From a bacterium (GTDB lineage Bacteria; Cyanobacteriota; Vampirovibrionia; Gastranaerophilales; Gastranaerophilaceae): a stretch of 16,206 nucleotides of DNA. Within the stretch, counting starts at the first letter, position 1; every line of letters begins with the position of its first letter. Made by a program: the position numbers and the translations under genes. The stretch is taken from assembly GCA_024408905.1 (NCBI GenBank), contig JAKSUP010000008.1, forward strand, positions 1 through 16,206. Direction: 5' to 3'. The notes below the pieces were generated by a model. The model ran no database searches, was not told where the DNA came from, and worked only from the letters and a program-made list of their open reading frames with translations. This document shows, in pieces, positions 2,711 to 13,133 of the stretch.

Positions 2711-4014
2711 TGATATTTTCTGACTTAGTAGGTATAATTGCAGATGATTTGACAGGTGCAAATGATACGGCACTTCAATTTCAACAGCAAGGTGCTAATA
2801 CCAAAATTCTACTTGATATAGAAAGTGTTCCGAAGGTAAAAGCAGGCACTGAAGTTTGGGCACTATCGACTGAATCAAGGAATATCCCGTCTGGGGATGC
2901 TGTGATTAATGTAGGTAAAGCCGTAAAAGTTTTCACGGATAATTTTTCTTTTGATTATTATTACAAGAAAATTGATTCAACCTTGCGTGGAAATATTGCA
3001 ATGGAAACCCTTGCGATGTTGGACATTCTTCAATATGATGCAGCAATCGTAATTCCTGCGTTTCCACAAGAAGGCCGAATTACGGTTGGTGGATATCATT
3101 TAGCAAAAGGTGTCCCAATTGGTAGAACTGAAATGGCAATTGACCCCAAAGCACCTATTACAGAATCGCATGTTCCGACTCTGCTTCGTTCTCAAATTTT
3201 TGAAATGCTGGGTGATGTTGTAGGAACAATTGATTTGAAAACCATTTTGAATGGTGCCGGCCCGATTTTAATGCGAATTAACGAACTTATTGAAGAGGGT
3301 AAGCTTTTAATCGTAGCTGATGCTACAACATTAACAGATATTGAACAAATTGCATTGGCAGTCAAAAAATGTGAGAAAAAGATTTTGCCAACAGGTACTG
3401 CTGCAGGTGCTCAAGTTTTTGCAAAGTATTGGCTGGCAGGTGTTGAACAAGAGGAATCAGAAGTTCATACAGGCAAACTTCCAAAATTTATAGTATCAGG
3501 TACTGCAACACAAATTACAGCAAGACAAATTGTAAAATTAGAAAAATCCGAAGATTACAAAGATATTAAGTTTATTGCTTTAAAAACAAAAGATATCTTA
3601 GCCGGTGTTAATGATGAACTTGTAGAGAATGTTATATCAAACTTGCAAAATAATGGAACCGTTTGTGTTCATACGTCAAATTTAGTCGCAAATTTTGATG
3701 GTTTCTCTGATGTATCTTTGAATGCAGAATTGACAAAAGAAAAATTCGCAAGTTTGATAACAGATTATCTTGGCGAGTTAACAAAACGTGTTACCGATAG
3801 AATAAATGTAATATTGGTTACATTGGGTGGAGAAACTTCATACAAGTGTTGTAAAGCCATTAATTCTACTGAATTGCGTGTTGTAGACGAAGTTGCGCCT
3901 GCAATTTCTCTTTGCGCAGATTTGAATAATAAGTGGATTATTACAAAATCAGGGAATTTGGGTAATGCAAACACTTTGACAGAGATACTTAATTATTTGG
4001 TGCAACATGAGTGA
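2710..4014 (+). CDS. DUF1537 four-carbon acid sugar kinase (D-threonate/D-erythronate kinase type)
   Basis: The 434-residue protein matches the DUF1537 sugar kinase family in length and layout. The N-terminal substrate domain begins VGIIADDLTGANDTA (residues 7-21) and contains the family motif KKIDSTLRGN (86-95). The C-terminal nucleotide domain starts near FIVSGTATQITARQI and carries the LGGET glycine motif and a KSGNLG loop, where KSGNFG is more usual. Known members phosphorylate D-threonate, D-erythronate or related four-carbon acids at the 4-position with ATP in the cytoplasm. The gene starts in the ssb stop codon and overlaps the PdxA-family gene by 8 bp. This is the same kinase/dehydrogenase pair described for acid sugar catabolism. 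Family assignment is firm; the exact substrate is inferred. Confidence 0.88.
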   Translation: MIFSDLVGIIADDLTGANDTALQFQQQGANTKILLDIESVPKVKAGTEVWALSTESRNIPSGDAVINVGKAVKVFTDNFSFDYYYKKIDSTLRGNIAMETLAMLDILQYDAAIVIPAFPQEGRITVGGYHLAKGVPIGRTEMAIDPKAPITESHVPTLLRSQIFEMLGDVVGTIDLKTILNGAGPILMRINELIEEGKLLIVADATTLTDIEQIALAVKKCEKKILPTGTAAGAQVFAKYWLAGVEQEESEVHTGKLPKFIVSGTATQITARQIVKLEKSEDYKDIKFIALKTKDILAGVNDELVENVISNLQNNGTVCVHTSNLVANFDGFSDVSLNAELTKEKFASLITDYLGELTKRVTDRINVILVTLGGETSYKCCKAINSTELRVVDEVAPAISLCADLNNKWIITKSGNLGNANTLTEILNYLVQHE

Positions 4015-5058: not shown

Positions 5059-6483
5059 ATGAATGCTATGAACAACACAACAAGATACAGATTGTTAGGT
5101 ATCCCACATTTACCGTCTACAGTAGGAAGTGGTAAATCAGTTGTAAATAACTACACTATTAATAACTATAATAGTGGCAGATGTGGTTGTTATGGCAGCG
5201 CATTATTTGGCTACGGTTTTAACAATTGTGGCTGTGGCTTTGGCTTTGGTAATATTGGCAATTACTTCAAATTTGGTTTTGGCATGGGCTTGGCAAATCT
5301 TGCAACAGGCCTGCTTGGCTTCGGTGTAAACTGGCTAATGAATGGCATATCTACAGGAAACTGGAGATTGAATAATTGTGGCTACGGCATGGGCTATGGC
5401 TTTGGTAACGGCAGCTACTGGGGTGGCGGCTATTACACCCCTGGTACTGACGGAACAGAGCGAGGTGGAAGAGTTAAATCCAAAAACGATATAGATAACG
5501 CAAAATTTGCTCCACTAATTACAAAAATTAGAGGCTTAAAAAATGATAAAGATTTGACACCTGCAAAGATTCAAGCAGTATACAAAGAAATCTTAGATGA
5601 TATTAAAAACACAGATAACAATCATAAAGATTCAGATGTGGCAACATATCAAGCATTATTGAATGATTTGGATGATATCATAGCAGATAAAGGCTATACA
5701 GTAGATAAAAAAACGGGTGCTGTAACTGATCCAAATGCTCCTGTAGTTGAAAGTGACAATGAAGGAAACGGAAGTGCTATTCCTTTAACTAATGAGCAGA
5801 TAGAAGCTATAAAAGCAGCATCTACTCCAGACGAGTTGATCGATGAATTAGATGGCGTAGATTTAACAAAATTGTCTGATGATGATTTAGCTACTATAAA
5901 AGCTCAATTACAATCTGTTGTTGATGATTGTGATAATAAAGATGAATTGAATGGTTTATTAAATGCTGTTAAAGGTAATCCTACGTTAAAAGCGATTGTT
6001 CAAAAAAAGATAAATGAACTAGAAGAAGCAGAAAAAGCAAAAGAACCTAAAACGTTGAGTGACGATGATATCAAAGCTTTAGCAGTGAAGCTAAACGAAA
6101 TCGATGGTATTAAAGCTGAAGTAAAAGGAAAAGAAATTAAATTAACAGCTATTTTATTTGAACACGCAAGTGCAGACTTACAAAGTTCAGCAATAACAAA
6201 ATTAAATGCAATATTGGCTCAAATAAAAGGCACTGGATATAAATCAGTAGTATCTCACGGATATACAAATACTAAAGGTGATGACAAAGGATATGATAAT
6301 AAAGGTCTGAGTGATCGCAGAGCAAAAGCTGTATCAGAGTATTTGAACAAAAATGATGAAATAAATGACAATGATAATGCTTATATTGAAGTAGGTCACG
6401 GATCAGATAATGTAGTTAAAAAAGCAGATGATAATGAAGACTTCGATGCATCAAGAAGAACAGAAATTGTGATAACATTCTAA
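5059..6483 (+). CDS. OmpA-domain protein with Gly/Asn/Cys-rich N-terminus
   Basis: The 474-residue protein has three parts. Residues 30-130 are low complexity, rich in Gly, Asn, Phe and Tyr, with CxC pairs at Cys42/44 and Cys57/59 and a further Cys107. This segment contains a short hydrophobic stretch (GMGLANLATGLLGFGVNWLM) that could insert in a membrane. Residues 140-350 are acidic and mostly helical. The C-terminal 120 residues look OmpA-like: GYTNTKG, then NKGLSDRRAKAVSEYL, then RRTEIVITF at the very end. The family's peptidoglycan-contacting Asp in GHTD is replaced by Asn (GYTN), while the Arg of LSxRRA is kept. There is no recognisable signal peptide, so the export route is unclear. Its role may be envelope anchoring, but that is inference. 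A GAGG site precedes the ATG. Confidence 0.8.
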   Translation: MNAMNNTTRYRLLGIPHLPSTVGSGKSVVNNYTINNYNSGRCGCYGSALFGYGFNNCGCGFGFGNIGNYFKFGFGMGLANLATGLLGFGVNWLMNGISTGNWRLNNCGYGMGYGFGNGSYWGGGYYTPGTDGTERGGRVKSKNDIDNAKFAPLITKIRGLKNDKDLTPAKIQAVYKEILDDIKNTDNNHKDSDVATYQALLNDLDDIIADKGYTVDKKTGAVTDPNAPVVESDNEGNGSAIPLTNEQIEAIKAASTPDELIDELDGVDLTKLSDDDLATIKAQLQSVVDDCDNKDELNGLLNAVKGNPTLKAIVQKKINELEEAEKAKEPKTLSDDDIKALAVKLNEIDGIKAEVKGKEIKLTAILFEHASADLQSSAITKLNAILAQIKGTGYKSVVSHGYTNTKGDDKGYDNKGLSDRRAKAVSEYLNKNDEINDNDNAYIEVGHGSDNVVKKADDNEDFDASRRTEIVITF

Positions 6484-7122: not shown

Positions 7123-8211
7123 ATGGCTTCAATTACTATCAACACAAACCTTGCGTCATTGACAGCGCAAAGGAACTTGTCACAAGCAACTAGTGGTATG
7201 AATACTGCTATGGAAAGATTGTCAACAGGCTACAAAATTAACTCAGGTAAAGATGATGCAGCAGGTTCTTCTGTATCAACTTTGATGGAAGCACAAATTT
7301 CAGGTTATGACGTAGCAGAATCAAACGCAACAATGGGCTTGTCACTACTTGACACTGCAGAAGGTGTTTTAGGCATTGTTGGTGATTACTTGCAACGTAT
7401 CAGAGATTTGACGGAACAAGCAGCTAATGGTACTTACGGTACAGCTTCTATGAACGCAATTAAGACTGAAGTAGAACAAAGAATGTTAGAAATTAACCGT
7501 CTATGTTCAGTAATCGATTTCAACGGTATCAAATTATTAGATGGTACAAGTATTGCTGCAACCTCAGAAAACGGTGTTAACCTTCAAGTAAGTAACAACT
7601 CAGGTAAAAATAACATTATTAACTTGAAATATACAATATTTAAGGCTGCTACAATAACAGCTTTATTAATGTCAGGTAACGCAAAGAGTGATCACGTTGG
7701 AACAAAAGATCCTGACCAAGCTTGGTTTGAAAGAGGAACAACTGATACTGCGGCATTAAAGGCTCGTATTATGGGTGGTGAAACAACATCAGATGACAAT
7801 AGAAAATATAACTATGAAGAAAAAGGTTATACAAAAATTGATGGTCAAAACTATGATTGGCAAGATAATAAAACAGGAAGTCCTAACAAATCTTGTATTA
7901 CAGCTATTTGTGATGCTGTTTATACAGATGATGCAACTGCTCGTGAATTCTTACAATTCATTGATGATGCTATCGGAAACGTATCAGACAGAATATCTTT
8001 AATTGGTGCTTATATGAACCGTGTTGAATCTGCAGTTGACGCAATCGCCGTTCAAAAAGAAAACATTGTATCAGCTAATTCATCTATTAAAGATGCTGAT
8101 GTTGCAACTGAATCATCTAACTTTATTAAATATCAAATTTTGCAACAATCTTCAGCAACATTGTTGTCAACAGCAAACCAAACTCCACAAATTGCATTAA
8201 ACTTAATATAA
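7123..8211 (+). CDS. fliC: Flagellin
   Basis: The 362-residue protein is the flagellar filament subunit, exported through the flagellar type III apparatus, hence no signal peptide. The N-terminal D0/D1 region (1-145) has the typical TNLASLTAQRNLS start and the ERLSTGYKINSGKDDAAG block. The C-terminal D1/D0 region ends with a typical QILQQSSATLLSTANQTPQ tail. The central variable part (about 145-275) is short. The D1 contact residues that define TLR5-visible flagellins in Salmonella (Arg90, Leu94, Glu114) are matched by Arg92, Leu96 and Glu116. Three cysteines (128, 258, 263) are unusual for a flagellin. An AAAGGAG site precedes the ATG, and a strong terminator follows the stop. It is monocistronic; no other flagellar gene lies in the window. 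Confidence 0.96.
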   Translation: MASITINTNLASLTAQRNLSQATSGMNTAMERLSTGYKINSGKDDAAGSSVSTLMEAQISGYDVAESNATMGLSLLDTAEGVLGIVGDYLQRIRDLTEQAANGTYGTASMNAIKTEVEQRMLEINRLCSVIDFNGIKLLDGTSIAATSENGVNLQVSNNSGKNNIINLKYTIFKAATITALLMSGNAKSDHVGTKDPDQAWFERGTTDTAALKARIMGGETTSDDNRKYNYEEKGYTKIDGQNYDWQDNKTGSPNKSCITAICDAVYTDDATAREFLQFIDDAIGNVSDRISLIGAYMNRVESAVDAIAVQKENIVSANSSIKDADVATESSNFIKYQILQQSSATLLSTANQTPQIALNLI

Positions 8212-8231
8212 TTTTGGGAAGTTTATATAGT

Positions 8232-8268
8232 AATGAAGCCCCCGCCGGTGCGGGGGCTTCATTGTTTT
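8232..8268 (+). terminator. Intrinsic terminator between flagellin and the RNA methyltransferase gene
   Basis: AATGAAGCCCCCGC (8232-8245) pairs perfectly with 8250-8263 as a 14-bp stem closed by a CGGT loop, followed by GTTTT. It lies 20 bp after the flagellin stop. The same stem could act on the converging minus-strand operon, whose last stop codon overlaps its T-run, but the T-tract on that side is weak. Confidence 0.92.
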
Positions 8269-9019
8269 AATTCATAATTTTGTACGCAATTAAGCTTACA
8301 GATGTACTTAAATTTAACGATTCTACCGTATTTTTCATTTCTATTGTGATGTTTTTATTTGCAAACTCTTTTAGTTCCGTGCTTAATCCATTGGCTTCTG
8401 AACCGAACATCAATAAAACATTCTCTTTTGGTGTATATTCTTTTAAAGGTACAATATTTTCCCCTTTTGGTAGTGTTGCTATGCGTTCGTAATCTTTAAA
8501 ATATTTGTTTAAAATGTCGAAATCTTTAGTTGCGTAAATAGGTATTTTCCAAAGGTTTCCGACGGTTGAACGCACGCATTTAGGGTTATATAAGTCAATT
8601 GTATCGCCGTATAAAATAATAGCATCTATACCGAAAGCAACAGAGCTTCTTATAATTGTGCCGAGGTTCCCTGCATCTTTTATTCCTTCAAGTAAAATAA
8701 CTTTATTCGCGTGTTTTAAATCTGTGATATTTTGTGTTTTTTGTTTAGCAACAGCAACTATTGGTGGTGCAGTTTTTGTGTCAGAAATTTTTGATAAAAC
8801 AGCTTCTGTTGTTTTAATAATGATTTCTTCATTAATTCCGTTTATTTGTGTTTTAGTGTCACAAAATACTCTCACAAGCTCTATACCGGAATTAACAGCC
8901 TCGGTTACTCCATTCACACCATCTACCAAAAATAACTTCGTTTCTTCTCGGTATTTTTTTTGTAAAAGTTTTGCAGTTTCTTTTACTACTTCATTATTTA
9001 CGCTTGTAATTTCTATCAT
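8267..9019 (-). CDS. SpoU/TrmH-family RNA 2'-O-methyltransferase
   Basis: The 250-residue protein has an N-terminal substrate-binding domain (about 1-95) and a C-terminal SPOUT domain with the trefoil-knot motifs. Motif 1 is NLGTIIRSSVAFG (118-130) with the catalytic Arg124. Motif 2 is LLMFGSEANGLS (202-213) with Glu208. Motif 3 is ESLNLSTSVSLIAY (233-246). These enzymes methylate the 2'-hydroxyl of a ribose in 23S rRNA or tRNA using S-adenosylmethionine. The arrangement fits the RlmB/TsnR-like rRNA branch, but the target nucleotide cannot be read from sequence. Its ATG overlaps the stop of the upstream aminopeptidase gene by 4 bp (ATGA), so the two are translationally coupled. It is the last gene of the parvulin-aminopeptidase-methyltransferase operon. 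Confidence 0.92.
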   Translation of the reverse strand: MIEITSVNNEVVKETAKLLQKKYREETKLFLVDGVNGVTEAVNSGIELVRVFCDTKTQINGINEEIIIKTTEAVLSKISDTKTAPPIVAVAKQKTQNITDLKHANKVILLEGIKDAGNLGTIIRSSVAFGIDAIILYGDTIDLYNPKCVRSTVGNLWKIPIYATKDFDILNKYFKDYERIATLPKGENIVPLKEYTPKENVLLMFGSEANGLSTELKEFANKNITIEMKNTVESLNLSTSVSLIAYKIMN

Positions 9020-10887: not shown

Positions 10888-10915
10888 AAAAAAAAGCCTG
10901 ACCAAATGGTCAGGC
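10888..10915 (-). terminator. Intrinsic terminator after rplA
   Basis: On the minus strand GCCTGACC pairs with GGTCAGGC through an ATTT loop (10896-10915), followed immediately by eight T residues (complement of 10888-10895). It lies 8 bp past the rplA stop and ends the rpmG-secE-nusG-rplK-rplA block. Confidence 0.95.
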
Positions 10916-10922
10916 ATTAATA

Positions 10923-11648
10923 TCAACCAACAATTTCTTTAACTTCGGATGCCAAGTTTTTAGAATCAACTTTAATACTTGGCCCCATAGTTGTTGTTAA
11001 GTACACAGACTTAACATAAGTACCTTTTGCAGAAGCAGGTTTTGCTCTTAAAACGGCATCTGCTAAAGTTCCGAAGTTTTTAACTAAGTCTTCGTTAGCA
11101 AATTGAACTTTACCGATAGGGCAGTGAATCATACCTTGCTTATCAGCTCTGAATTCAACTTTACCGGCTTTAGCATCTTTAACTGCTTTTGCGATATCTA
11201 ATGTTACAGTACCTGTTTTAGGGTTTGGCATTAAACCTTTAGGTCCTAAGACTCTACCAAGTTTACCTAACATACCCATGCAATCAGGTGTTGCAATTAA
11301 TGTATCAAATTCGAACCAACCATCTGCGATTTTATCGATGATATCTTCTGTACCATAGAAATCAGCACCTGCGTCTTTTGCTTCATTAACCTTAGGTCCT
11401 TTAGCGATAACGCAAACGCGAACTTCTTTACCTAAACCTGCAGGAAGTACAACAGTTGATCTGATTTGTTGATCAGCGTGTTTAACCTCGATACCTAATC
11501 TCATGTGACATTCAACTGTTTCGTTGAATTTTGCAACTTCTTTAGATACTTCTTGTAATTTTGTTAATGCTTCGCGACCACTTACCGGTTGAGTGAAATC
11601 AGCAAGTAGTTCTTGAAGTTTCTTTTGTTTTTTAGTTATTTTTGACAT
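10923..11648 (-). CDS. rplA: 50S ribosomal protein L1
   Basis: The protein is 241 residues from the ATG at 11648, close to the usual 230. It starts [18 protein letters not shown] and shows the L1 core: [14 protein letters not shown], a [14 protein letters not shown] segment (read here as [11 protein letters not shown] in the + 1 part of the domain), [31 protein letters not shown] and a C-terminal [14 protein letters not shown]1 binds 23S rRNA at the L1 stalk near the E site and, in many bacteria, represses its own operon through a mimic of that site in the mRNA. An in-frame ATG six codons upstream (11666) lies inside the conserved leader hairpin, while GGA-rich sequence precedes 11648, so the inner start is chosen. 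A terminator follows directly, so L10 and L7/L12 are not cotranscribed downstream. Confidence 0.96.
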
Positions 11649-11663
11649 TTTTTCTTTTCCTTT

Positions 11664-11694
11664 CATGGTACTAACGGGCTTTCACCCTTCCATT
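11664..11694 (-). promoter_or_regulatory. Structured RNA leader before rplA (copy 2 of a paired motif)
   Basis: The minus-strand RNA reads AUGG-AA-GGG-UGAAAG-CCC-GUUAGUA-CCAU. The outer stem AUGG/CCAU (11690-11693 with 11665-11668) and inner stem GGG/CCC flank an asymmetric loop of AA opposite GUUAGUA. It is followed by GAAAGGA. The same architecture, with different stem bases, occurs before rplK. It starts 3 bp after the rplK stop. It is a candidate translational control site, possibly bound by L1; the ligand is inference. Confidence 0.6.
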
Positions 11695-11696
11695 TA

Positions 11697-12122
11697 TTAA
11701 TCTTTAACAGTAACACCCATTGCTCTGCAAGAACCTGCAATCATTTTAACTGCAGCATCCATAGTTGTAGCGTTTAAATCGTTCATCTTGATTTTAGCTA
11801 TTTCTTCAAGCTGAGCTCTTGTGATTTCACCAACTTTAGTTTTGTTAGGAACACCTGAACCTTTAGGGATGTTCAAAGCTTTCTTAATCAAAACCGGAGC
11901 CGGAGGTGATTTGATTACAAATGTAAAACTTCTGTCTTCATAAACATCAATAATAACAGGGATAATATATCCTGCTTGAGATTCAGTTTTAGCATTGAAT
12001 TGTTTACAAAAATCCATGATGTTAACACCATGTTGACCCAAAGCCGGACCAACCGGAGGTGATGGATTTGCTTTACCTGCTTCAATTTGCAGTTTAATTT
12101 TTCCTACTACTTTTTTTGCCAT
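11697..12122 (-). CDS. rplK: 50S ribosomal protein L11
   Basis: From the ATG at 12122 the protein is 141 residues, exactly the usual L11 length. It starts [20 protein letters not shown], continues with the proline-rich [20 protein letters not shown] and the [12 protein letters not shown] segment, and has a C-terminal RNA-binding domain ending [13 protein letters not shown]11 binds the GTPase-associated region of 23S rRNA and takes part in factor binding and the stringent response. A longer frame from 12155 would begin inside the apical loop of the leader hairpin and is rejected, because a perfect AAAGGAG with 6-base spacing serves 12122. It lies between nusG and rplA, and its leader shares a structured motif with rplA's. 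Confidence 0.97.
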
Positions 12123-12135
12123 TTTGTTCTCCTTT

Positions 12136-12166
12136 CGTGGTGCTAACGGGGGCATCCCCTTCCACG
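12136..12166 (-). promoter_or_regulatory. Structured RNA leader before rplK (copy 1 of a paired motif)
   Basis: The minus-strand RNA reads CGUGG-AA-GGGG-AUG-CCCCC-GUUAGCA-CCACG. The outer stem CGUGG/CCACG (12162-12166 with 12136-12140) and inner stem GGGG/CCCC enclose the loop AA opposite GUUAGCA. GAAAGGAG follows at once and is the rplK ribosome site. Compared with the rplA copy, G-C in the outer stem becomes A-U with both partners changed, while the loop GUUAGYA and AA are conserved. That supports a real RNA fold. Confidence 0.62.
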
Positions 12167-12181
12167 TTATTTACTTAACTG

Positions 12182-12214
12182 TTCCCTCTCATTCGAGGGG
12201 TAAGGTGAGGTTTT
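12182..12214 (-). repeat. CCTCACC...GAGAGGGAA repeat, diverged copy
   Basis: On the minus strand this reads AAAACCTCACCTTACCCCTC, then GAATGAGAGGGAA. It is a shorter, diverged copy of the element at 12237-12273, in the same orientation and starting 55 bp away. Both sit in the nusG-rplK spacer, inside an operon of essential genes. Confidence 0.6.
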
Positions 12215-12236
12215 ATCCTCAATTCCTTTATTTTAT

Positions 12237-12273
12237 TTCCCTCTCCTAGGGAGAGAGTTAGGGTGAGGGTTTT
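12237..12273 (-). repeat. CCCTCACCC...GAGAGGGAA repeat
   Basis: On the minus strand it begins AAAACCCTCACCCTAACTC and ends CCTAGGAGAGGGAA, with an internal CTCTCC/GGAGAG hairpin. Related copies lie at 12182-12214 (same strand) and 13743-13775 (opposite strand). The sequence type is a common dispersed intergenic repeat. It is not followed by a T-run and should not stop transcription into rplK. Confidence 0.65.
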
Positions 12274-12283
12274 ACCCCTTTCC

Positions 12284-12892
12284 TTATAATTTTTGAATTT
12301 GTTTATATTCAAGTTCTACCGGAGTTTCACGACCAAAGATAGAAACCATAGCTCTAAGTTTAGCCTTGTCAGGATATACTTCGGTAATGTCACCAACGAA
12401 TTCAGCGAACGGACCTGAAATAATTCTAACTTTTTCTCCGACTTTAACATCCATTTCGATTTTTTGAGTTTGAGTTGTTGAACGGTGAATAATTTTCTTG
12501 ATTTCACTTTCTTTAGCCGGAATAGGTTTTTTAGCAGAGCCGACAAATTTTGTAACGCCTGCTGTGTGTCTAACTACGTACCAGCTATCTTCGTCCATAA
12601 TCATTTCTACAAGAACGTAACCAGGGAAGATTTTCTCTTCTTTTTCTTGCTTTCTGCCACCTTTAATTTGTGTAACAGTTTTTTGAGGAACTTCAACTCT
12701 AAAAATCTTGTCAGACATGTTCATGTATTCAATACGTTTTTCCAAGTTGCTTTTAACTTTGTTTTCGTAACCTGAATAAGTGTGAACAATGTACCAACGT
12801 TTTTGATTTTGTTTGTCAGAAGATTTGTTTGCAGATTCTGCAACTTCTTCCAATTGTTCTTCATTTAAGATGTTTTCTTCTTTTTCACTCAT
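12284..12892 (-). CDS. nusG: Transcription termination/antitermination factor NusG
   Basis: The 202-residue protein has an acidic lead of about 30 residues (EEQLEEVAESANKSSDKQNQ), then the NGN domain starting KRWYIVHTYSGYENKVKSNL and including FPGYVLVEM and the VRHTAGVTKFVG segment. The C-terminal KOW domain starts GEKVRIISGPFAEFVGDITE and ends with RETPVELEYKQIQKL. NusG binds the RNA polymerase clamp and coordinates pausing, Rho action and coupling to ribosomes. An AAAGGG ribosome site 8 bases before the ATG supports the start. The acidic N-terminal extension is longer than in E. coli NusG (181 residues). It sits between secE and rplK in the classical order. Confidence 0.97.
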   Translation of the reverse strand: MSEKEENILNEEQLEEVAESANKSSDKQNQKRWYIVHTYSGYENKVKSNLEKRIEYMNMSDKIFRVEVPQKTVTQIKGGRKQEKEEKIFPGYVLVEMIMDEDSWYVVRHTAGVTKFVGSAKKPIPAKESEIKKIIHRSTTQTQKIEMDVKVGEKVRIISGPFAEFVGDITEVYPDKAKLRAMVSIFGRETPVELEYKQIQKL

Positions 12893-12926: not shown

Positions 12927-13133
12927 CTATTTTGTAAAAAGGCTTATGATTCCTTCTAAACCTTTATCAACGATAAATATAAAAACAGTAAAAATAGTAA
13001 CAATGCTAACTACAAAAATGGTTTCAACGATAACTTGATGTTTTTCCGGCCAAGTTATCTTACCCCACTCAATTTTAACGCCTTTTAAAAAATTGAGAAT
13101 ACTACCTTTTAAAATTTGAAAATTATCGTTCAT
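12927..13133 (-). CDS. secE: Preprotein translocase subunit SecE
   Basis: The protein is 68 residues from the ATG at 13133, a typical size for the single-membrane-span SecE of most bacteria. It has an amphipathic N-terminal helix (LKGSILNFLKGVKIEWGKIT), the conserved family core WGKITWPEK, and one membrane segment (VETIFVVSIVTIFTVFIFIV). SecE clamps SecY in the inner-membrane protein export channel. The frame stays open upstream to 13217, but that extension would run through tRNA-Trp and is rejected; AAAGGT with 7-base spacing serves 13133. Its neighbours tRNA-Trp upstream and nusG downstream confirm the assignment. Confidence 0.96.
   Translation of the reverse strand: MNDNFQILKGSILNFLKGVKIEWGKITWPEKHQVIVETIFVVSIVTIFTVFIFIVDKGLEGIISLFTK

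Follow-up and report, generated by a model that had tools for sequence, protein, structure and literature searches.

Organisation of the L11-L1 locus

The window, that is the whole stretch of 16,206 nucleotides analysed here, comes from a gut bacterium of the Gastranaerophilaceae, the nearest named records being Candidatus Gastranaerophilales. On its reverse strand it carries secE, nusG, rplK and rplA, and two irregular hairpins adjoin the starts of rplK and rplA (Table 1). The rplA product aligns with solved bacterial L1 chains. Measured from the 4-bp outer stem, the hairpins lie 14 nt (rplK) and 16 nt (rplA) from the ATG, and 14 nt is also the commonest distance in relatives (120 of the 157 rplK sites found with the written signature described below, duplicates and pattern-chosen loci included). 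The first pair of the rplA hairpin stands 3 nt past the rplK stop codon, within a gap of 48 nt between rplK stop and rplA start, against 3 nt in Escherichia coli.

Table 1. Features of the window and the basis of their assignment
Feature	Position	Strand	Basis or remark
Flagellin gene	7123-8211		PF00669 + PF00700
Terminator-like hairpin and T run, 3' of rplA	10896-10915	-
rplA, ribosomal protein L1, presumed repressor	10923-11648 (ATG 11648-11646)	-	PF00687
AAAGGA, Shine-Dalgarno-like, 3' of the rplA hairpin	11658-11663	-	read from sequence
Putative L1-type operator hairpin 5' of rplA	11664-11694	-	fold, pattern, covariance model
rplK, ribosomal protein L11	11697-12122 (ATG 12122-12120)	-	PF03946 + PF00298
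AAAGGAG, Shine-Dalgarno-like, directly 3' of the rplK hairpin	12129-12135	-	read from sequence
Putative L1-type operator hairpin 5' of rplK	12136-12166	-	fold, pattern, covariance model
nusG	12284-12892	-	PF02357; upstream gene
secE	12927-13133	-	PF00584; upstream gene

Some other features of the window deserve mention in their own right. The gap between nusG and rplK (12170-12283) holds CCTCACC-CTCTCCC/GGAGAGGG-like stretches that resemble two worn copies of a repeat; a repeat tool reported no repeat of at least 12 nt there. Between the flagellin gene and a convergent ORF (8267-9019) lies a very stable hairpin, GAAGCCCCCGCCGGUGCGGGGGCUUC (8228-8263), perhaps a two-way terminator. The ORF at 5059-6483 combines a Gly/Asn-rich N-terminal part with a C-terminal OmpA-family domain.

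Two hairpins of common architecture

The rplK hairpin consists of a 5-bp outer stem CGUGG/CCACG, a 5' loop AA, an inner stem GGGG/CCCC capped by the tetraloop AUGC, and a 3' loop GUUAGCA. In the rplA hairpin, flanked by A on its 5' side and G on its 3' side, a 4-bp outer stem AUGG/CCAU encloses the same AA, an inner stem GGGU/GCCC with the loop GAAA, and the 3' loop GUUAGUA. Both thus follow one plan, with an outer stem NUGG/CCAN, AA on the 5' side, an inner stem closed by G-C, a variable tip and a 3' strand of 7 nt, and they correspond to the irregular stem-loop with internal bulge by which L1 sites are described in a review (PMC10931766). The first-pass annotation had drawn twin hairpins of a single architecture just before both ribosome-binding sites, and the predicted fold agrees with this drawing. 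The minimum free energies are -12.5 kcal/mol for the rplK hairpin (in a 53-nt context) and -7.1 kcal/mol for the rplA hairpin; z-scores against shuffles are modest (-1.8 and -1.5), which is to be expected of hairpins that measure about 30 nt. Over the collected loci, pattern-chosen ones included, the mean energies of the two sites are equal (-8.84 and -8.83), the rplK site being the more stable in 75 of 116 pairs.

A start codon in the apical loop of the rplK hairpin would make L11 longer by 11 residues. It is in frame here and, by eye, out of frame in relatives, and we treat it as chance.

Specificity of the motif in the genome and in the phylum

The search pattern TGGAAG-N(3-30)-GTTAGYACCA matched twice in the window and in none of 200 dinucleotide shuffles. 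The whole 1.71 Mb assembly likewise gave two matches, both of them these leaders. We also built a covariance model, R1, from family sequences only, the two window leaders included. It scores these two members of its own training set at 38.0 bits (rplK) and 38.1 bits (rplA), and in the 1.71 Mb genome it retrieved only the same two sites at E up to 10, with 150 of the 292 first-look candidates scored.

In the draw of 194 genomes from the phylum, the pattern was present in 32. Thirteen pattern loci from genomes outside the family (L003-L015) are without rplA by tblastn and look like chance. Among 97 genomes of the family, R1 found two or more matches in 58, one in 29 and none in 10 under stricter filters. 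Five R1 places, all from genomes with matches on more than one contig, were inspected: two (L236, L238) precede rplA or rplK, and the other three (L234, L235, L237) stand before neither gene and seem to be chance matches. Off-operon R1 matches in three genomes (G244 C4, G233 C26, G232 C99) were rejected as operators after inspection, as were weak matches in L144 (12.6 bits) and L145 (12.9 bits), which are some 240 nt distant from the rplK start, in what reads like the last part of a different gene. A search of Rfam 15 with the window, eleven relatives and the E. coli locus matched no L1 leader, and the release apparently includes no L1-leader family; its weak matches over the leaders (SAM-II, 21 bits; Clostridiales-2, 19.8 bits) are far below the gathering scores and were rejected.

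Conservation within the Gastranaerophilaceae

The loci compared comprised the 30 best rplA loci of the phylum search, 80 named loci, 20 further family loci and one locus of G303, to which were added 24 from further genera within the family (24 of the 26 genomes gave a match) and 40 from outside it. Sixteen family loci from the pattern search (L016-L031) were left out of the counts because they had been chosen by the motif itself. The final counts leave out L001-L031 altogether and, with the initial 400 nt of rplA used to remove duplicates, refer to 135 distinct family loci. L1 itself was found in 189 of the 194 genomes, always as a single match.

With a written signature, the motif was found before rplA in 132 of the 135 loci, before rplK in 118 of the 127 that reach far enough upstream, and before both genes in 117 of those 127. 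Reading the misses by eye recovered all three rplA sites and seven of nine rplK sites, which brings the totals to 135/135 and 125/127. The two loci without an rplK hairpin, L216 (genome G198) and L226 (G203), have unrelated sequence between nusG and rplK; two other genomes of the genus of G203 showed two matches at the usual spacing. As background, the signature matched 81 of 6800 leaders after shuffling and none of 174 windows taken from within rplA. Of the unique family leaders, a strict structural scanner passed 69 of 112 for rplK and 93 of 119 for rplA, against about 1.4% of shuffles. It misses many true sites because their inner stem is bulged, and the signature counts, with the misses read by eye, were used for this reason. 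Loss of the stems or of the loop in relatives would have told against the first-pass annotation; on examination, almost every locus retains the stems and the core of the loop.

In three loci (L054, L057, L061) about 50 extra bases, including a second Shine-Dalgarno-like sequence, follow the rplA hairpin and its Shine-Dalgarno sequence, so that the putative operator lies 67-69 nt from the rplA start.

Covariation and conserved loop letters

Compensatory change was analysed on an alignment (A1) of 33 sequences, short and diverse, drawn from the signature list. In A1, 97.6% of cells are paired against 81.1% in shuffles, the covariation score is 0.372 against 0.100, and 46 cells are changed on both sides against a shuffled mean of 13.3; in each case none of 500 shuffles was as high. 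Controls in which the partner was shifted by 1 to 3 columns lost the signal, and the true pairing stands far above them. Two of the five summary measures, the number of pairs with a change on both sides and further pair types, were not above shuffles. The covariation bears out the view that the stems are kept as a selected RNA fold. A resemblance of the two leaders by chance might be entertained for a motif of only some 30 nt. Yet the empty dinucleotide shuffles, the two matches in the genome and this covariation leave it a negligible probability, and the conservation in the family already refutes it.

The signature fixes UGG, AG, ACC(A) and mostly CG before the loop, and constancy at these letters is partly by construction. 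Outer pairs 2-4 and the inner closing pair are invariant in A1, which is uninformative because most of their letters are so fixed. In loci that the signature missed, UGG/CCA does change to CGG/CCG: by eye, both leaders of L221 and the rplK leader of L231 have outer stems GCGG/CCGC, and the rplA leader of L228 has CGG/CCG.

The signature leaves positions 3 and 4 of the 3' loop free. Of 114 unique sites before rplA, 109 have U at position 3 and 112 have A at position 4; of 88 unique sites before rplK, the numbers are 69 and 63. Most sites have U or C at position 2, and positions 5 and 6 vary. The kept loop is thus approximately GYUANNA, more strictly so at rplA than at rplK. This retains the core of the GUUAGYA put forward from the window alone, whereas its fixed "GY" dissolves into two free positions in the family. 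The change of the outer stem as a pair (GUGG/CCAC against AUGG/CCAU) is similarly real without being strictly kept: the outermost pair is G-C in 87 of 88 unique rplK sites, while the 114 unique rplA sites have A-U in 63, a mismatched A-C in 29 and G-C in 15. As for the 5' AA, it proved typical of the family (in the signature list, 86 of 88 unique sites before rplK and 101 of 114 before rplA), but outside the family GA mostly takes its place. GA occurs in 13 of the 114 rplA sites; it is kept in rplA of several divergent genera of the family and, by eye, in rplK of L224 and L231.

The tip tolerates insertions of up to about 90 nt (total span up to 123 nt) with both halves of the hairpin intact. 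Long inserts in the tip of the rplA hairpin, some like tandem or inverted repeats, are seen in L026, L029, L031, several of L089-L104, L202 and L207, and this tip looks like a place that tolerates insertions. In one genus (g14, L187-L193), the rplA hairpin of six of seven loci (not L190) is extended by about 35-40 nt in which certain segments recur, and all seven have GAUAUYA as 3' loop instead of GYUANNA.

These patterns also bear on whether a protein is involved at all. Lying directly upstream of the Shine-Dalgarno sequence, the hairpins might act by structure alone, setting a basal translation rate or shielding the ribosome-binding site as a thermosensor. We hold this to be very unlikely: the Shine-Dalgarno sequence is outside the stem, and unpaired loop letters are kept where the signature would let them vary, while the tip changes freely, which points to a ligand that reads the internal loop.

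Resemblance to L1-binding RNAs

L1 represses translation of rplK-rplA through hairpins of this kind, and in E. coli it acts on the rplK leader (PMC10931766). The E. coli leader reads GGG-GA-GCCUC-UCA-GAGGC-GUUAUUA-CCC, and its 3' loop, GUUAUUA, fits the GYUANNA pattern of the family. In the 3.1 kb E. coli operon locus, the best R1 match is this rplK-leader site (13.3 bits, E 0.022; next best E 1.4); taken alone the match is weak, with E 0.7 in a search of 42 sources. E. coli and most Cyanobacteria have GA as 5' loop where the window has AA, and we treat GA as typical rather than defining. The 3' loop shared with the E. coli rplK-leader site and with rplA leaders of Cyanobacteria agrees with the tentative assignment of the hairpins to the L1-operator type made in the first-pass annotation.

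The other natural reference is the L1 stalk of 23S rRNA. The 23S rRNA of the genome itself was looked for and not found, and the comparison within the family rests on one stalk, that of G303, the sole find by pattern in 383 genomes. It reads GUGG-GA-GAC...GUC-(12 nt)-CCAC. Helices 76-78 thus share with the leaders the order of parts and a 3' strand that begins with G and ends with A, but this strand has 12 nt instead of 7. R1 gave them 8.4 bits (E 1.0, third-ranked in that search), which is not significant. Since the stalk has GA, the shift of the leaders to AA is not mirrored there.

A side observation was made in the same family, where the 23S rRNA gene of G200 (L183, about 3514-3900) is interrupted near GTAACTATAACGGTCCTAAGGT, the interruption leading into a reading frame that contains, by eye, VGFVDGEGCFSISI, like a LAGLIDADG homing endonuclease. 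A 23S intron is the probable explanation; the end of the contig comes before any second exon, and the interrupted 23S shows no stalk.

Both genes having their own hairpin, with small recurrent differences between the sites such as the outermost pair, one may ask whether L11 recognises the rplK hairpin and L1 the rplA hairpin, each protein controlling its own gene. The rRNA target of L11 is the GTPase-centre RNA, and the two hairpins share loops and closing pairs; R1, built from both, scores them equally. Moreover, Cyanobacteria have the motif ahead of rplA and E. coli has it ahead of rplK, at the positions that the review assigns to L1 sites (PMC10931766). Such a division of labour seems highly improbable to us, and we retain L1 as the candidate ligand of both hairpins.

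Sites outside the family

Outside the Gastranaerophilaceae, a hairpin of this kind stands before rplA in 37 of the 40 loci read, typically as GGGG-GA-stem-GYUANN(N)A-CCCC or with NUGG-GA. A relaxed scan gave a candidate in 35 of the 40, among which that of L151 and the span given for L170 were spurious; by eye, L152, L170, L174 and L179 were added to reach 37. On reading, no hairpin was seen in the rplA leaders of L150 and L151, and that of L173 looks broken. The rplK leaders of these loci are at chance level for the motif (1 of 40 by the strict scanner, against about 1.5% of shuffles). A placement before rplA only agrees with the position given for the cyanobacterial L1 site (Fu et al. 2013, as reported in PMC10931766).

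A proposed model of L1 feedback at two operators

The fold, its covariation, the position of the hairpins, their conservation and their likeness to the E. coli site are all observed, and together they make it very probable, on sequence grounds, that both hairpins are autogenous operators for ribosomal protein L1. We infer the following mode of action. L1 made in excess over free 23S rRNA would bind the internal-loop motif of the mRNA hairpins and clamp the outer stem, whose 3' strand directly abuts the Shine-Dalgarno sequence. The clamped stem would block 30S loading at both rplK and rplA. New 23S rRNA would offer an L1 site competing the protein away, and translation would then resume.

The rplA site may be the older one, shared with Cyanobacteria and the rest of the phylum sample, and the rplK site appears to be a gain in the Gastranaerophilaceae, missing again in two genomes (L216, L226); the polarity of this putative gain is taken from presence and absence, with only three genomes to represent the class beyond the family. 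Two operators would make sense with a cistron gap of 48 nt, since the short gap of E. coli lets one site serve both genes by translational coupling.

With one site per gene, rplK and rplA might be controlled separately, as the first-pass annotation had proposed. The two sites could also act in series: where the rplA hairpin begins at the rplK stop codon, a ribosome finishing rplK would hold the rplA hairpin open, and L1 would seize it only after rplK translation has stopped. The closeness of the rplA hairpin to the rplK stop codon in the window fits this possibility, as do the 72 among 131 distinct family loci in which this distance does not exceed 7 nt. However, the distance is greater in the other 59 and reaches 174 nt; of the 44 closest relatives (L1 identity at least 89%), only 7 stay within 7 nt, and the ribosome-footprint argument is itself conjectural. 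We consider control in series possible but doubtful. A still broader scenario joins three elements: a rplK operator gained on top of the ancestral rplA one, a drift of both from GA to AA, and, in operons whose rplA hairpin adjoins the rplK stop codon like that of the window, a two-step switch by which translation of rplK would decide on the closure of rplA by L1. We regard this combination as somewhat less probable again. Autogenous control by L1 at both hairpins, in series or not, is the reading that we carry forward.

Among the papers listed by literature searches, none reported L1 leaders in Gastranaerophilales or Melainabacteria, prior mention being possible in the key comparative papers (Fu et al. 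2013; Mikhaylina et al. 2021), and a catalogue of ribosomal leaders (PMC7247131) makes no mention of uL1 or uL11. Our results would thus describe a known kind of L1 switch in a group for which we met no earlier description: ordinary ribosomal-protein autoregulation, real and well conserved. They extend L1 feedback control, as predicted here, to the Gastranaerophilaceae and place a change in site number near one branch, with rplA only in the Cyanobacteria and other relatives read versus both genes in this family. This offers a natural way to test why some bacteria have one L1 operator and others two. An RNA family, seemingly missing from Rfam 15, could also be seeded with the alignment and the model.

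Comparison with known L1 operators

The E. coli L1 operator was reportedly located in the rplK (L11) leader by Thomas and Nomura in 1987, as cited in PMC10931766 and PMC6431027. Like the hairpins described here, it lies just before the rplK ribosome-binding site and has a G-rich outer stem, a 5' loop of 2 nt, an inner stem and then a 3' loop of 7 nt. It differs in being single, before rplK with rplA closely behind, in its 5' loop GA and in its outer stem GGG/CCC. The cyanobacterial site shares the type of hairpin before rplA and differs by the absence of one before rplK. A streptococcal transcriptome paper (PMC6431027) describes a conserved 5' UTR of rplK-rplA that folds like that of E. coli. 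The first-pass annotation had taken control through one mRNA site as the known precedent, but for Firmicutes, Thermus thermophilus and Thermotoga maritima the review already reports twin L1 sites, with rplK and rplA each preceded by one (PMC10931766). The placement before both rplK and rplA is the same as in the Gastranaerophilaceae, in different phyla, the likeness being one of placement.
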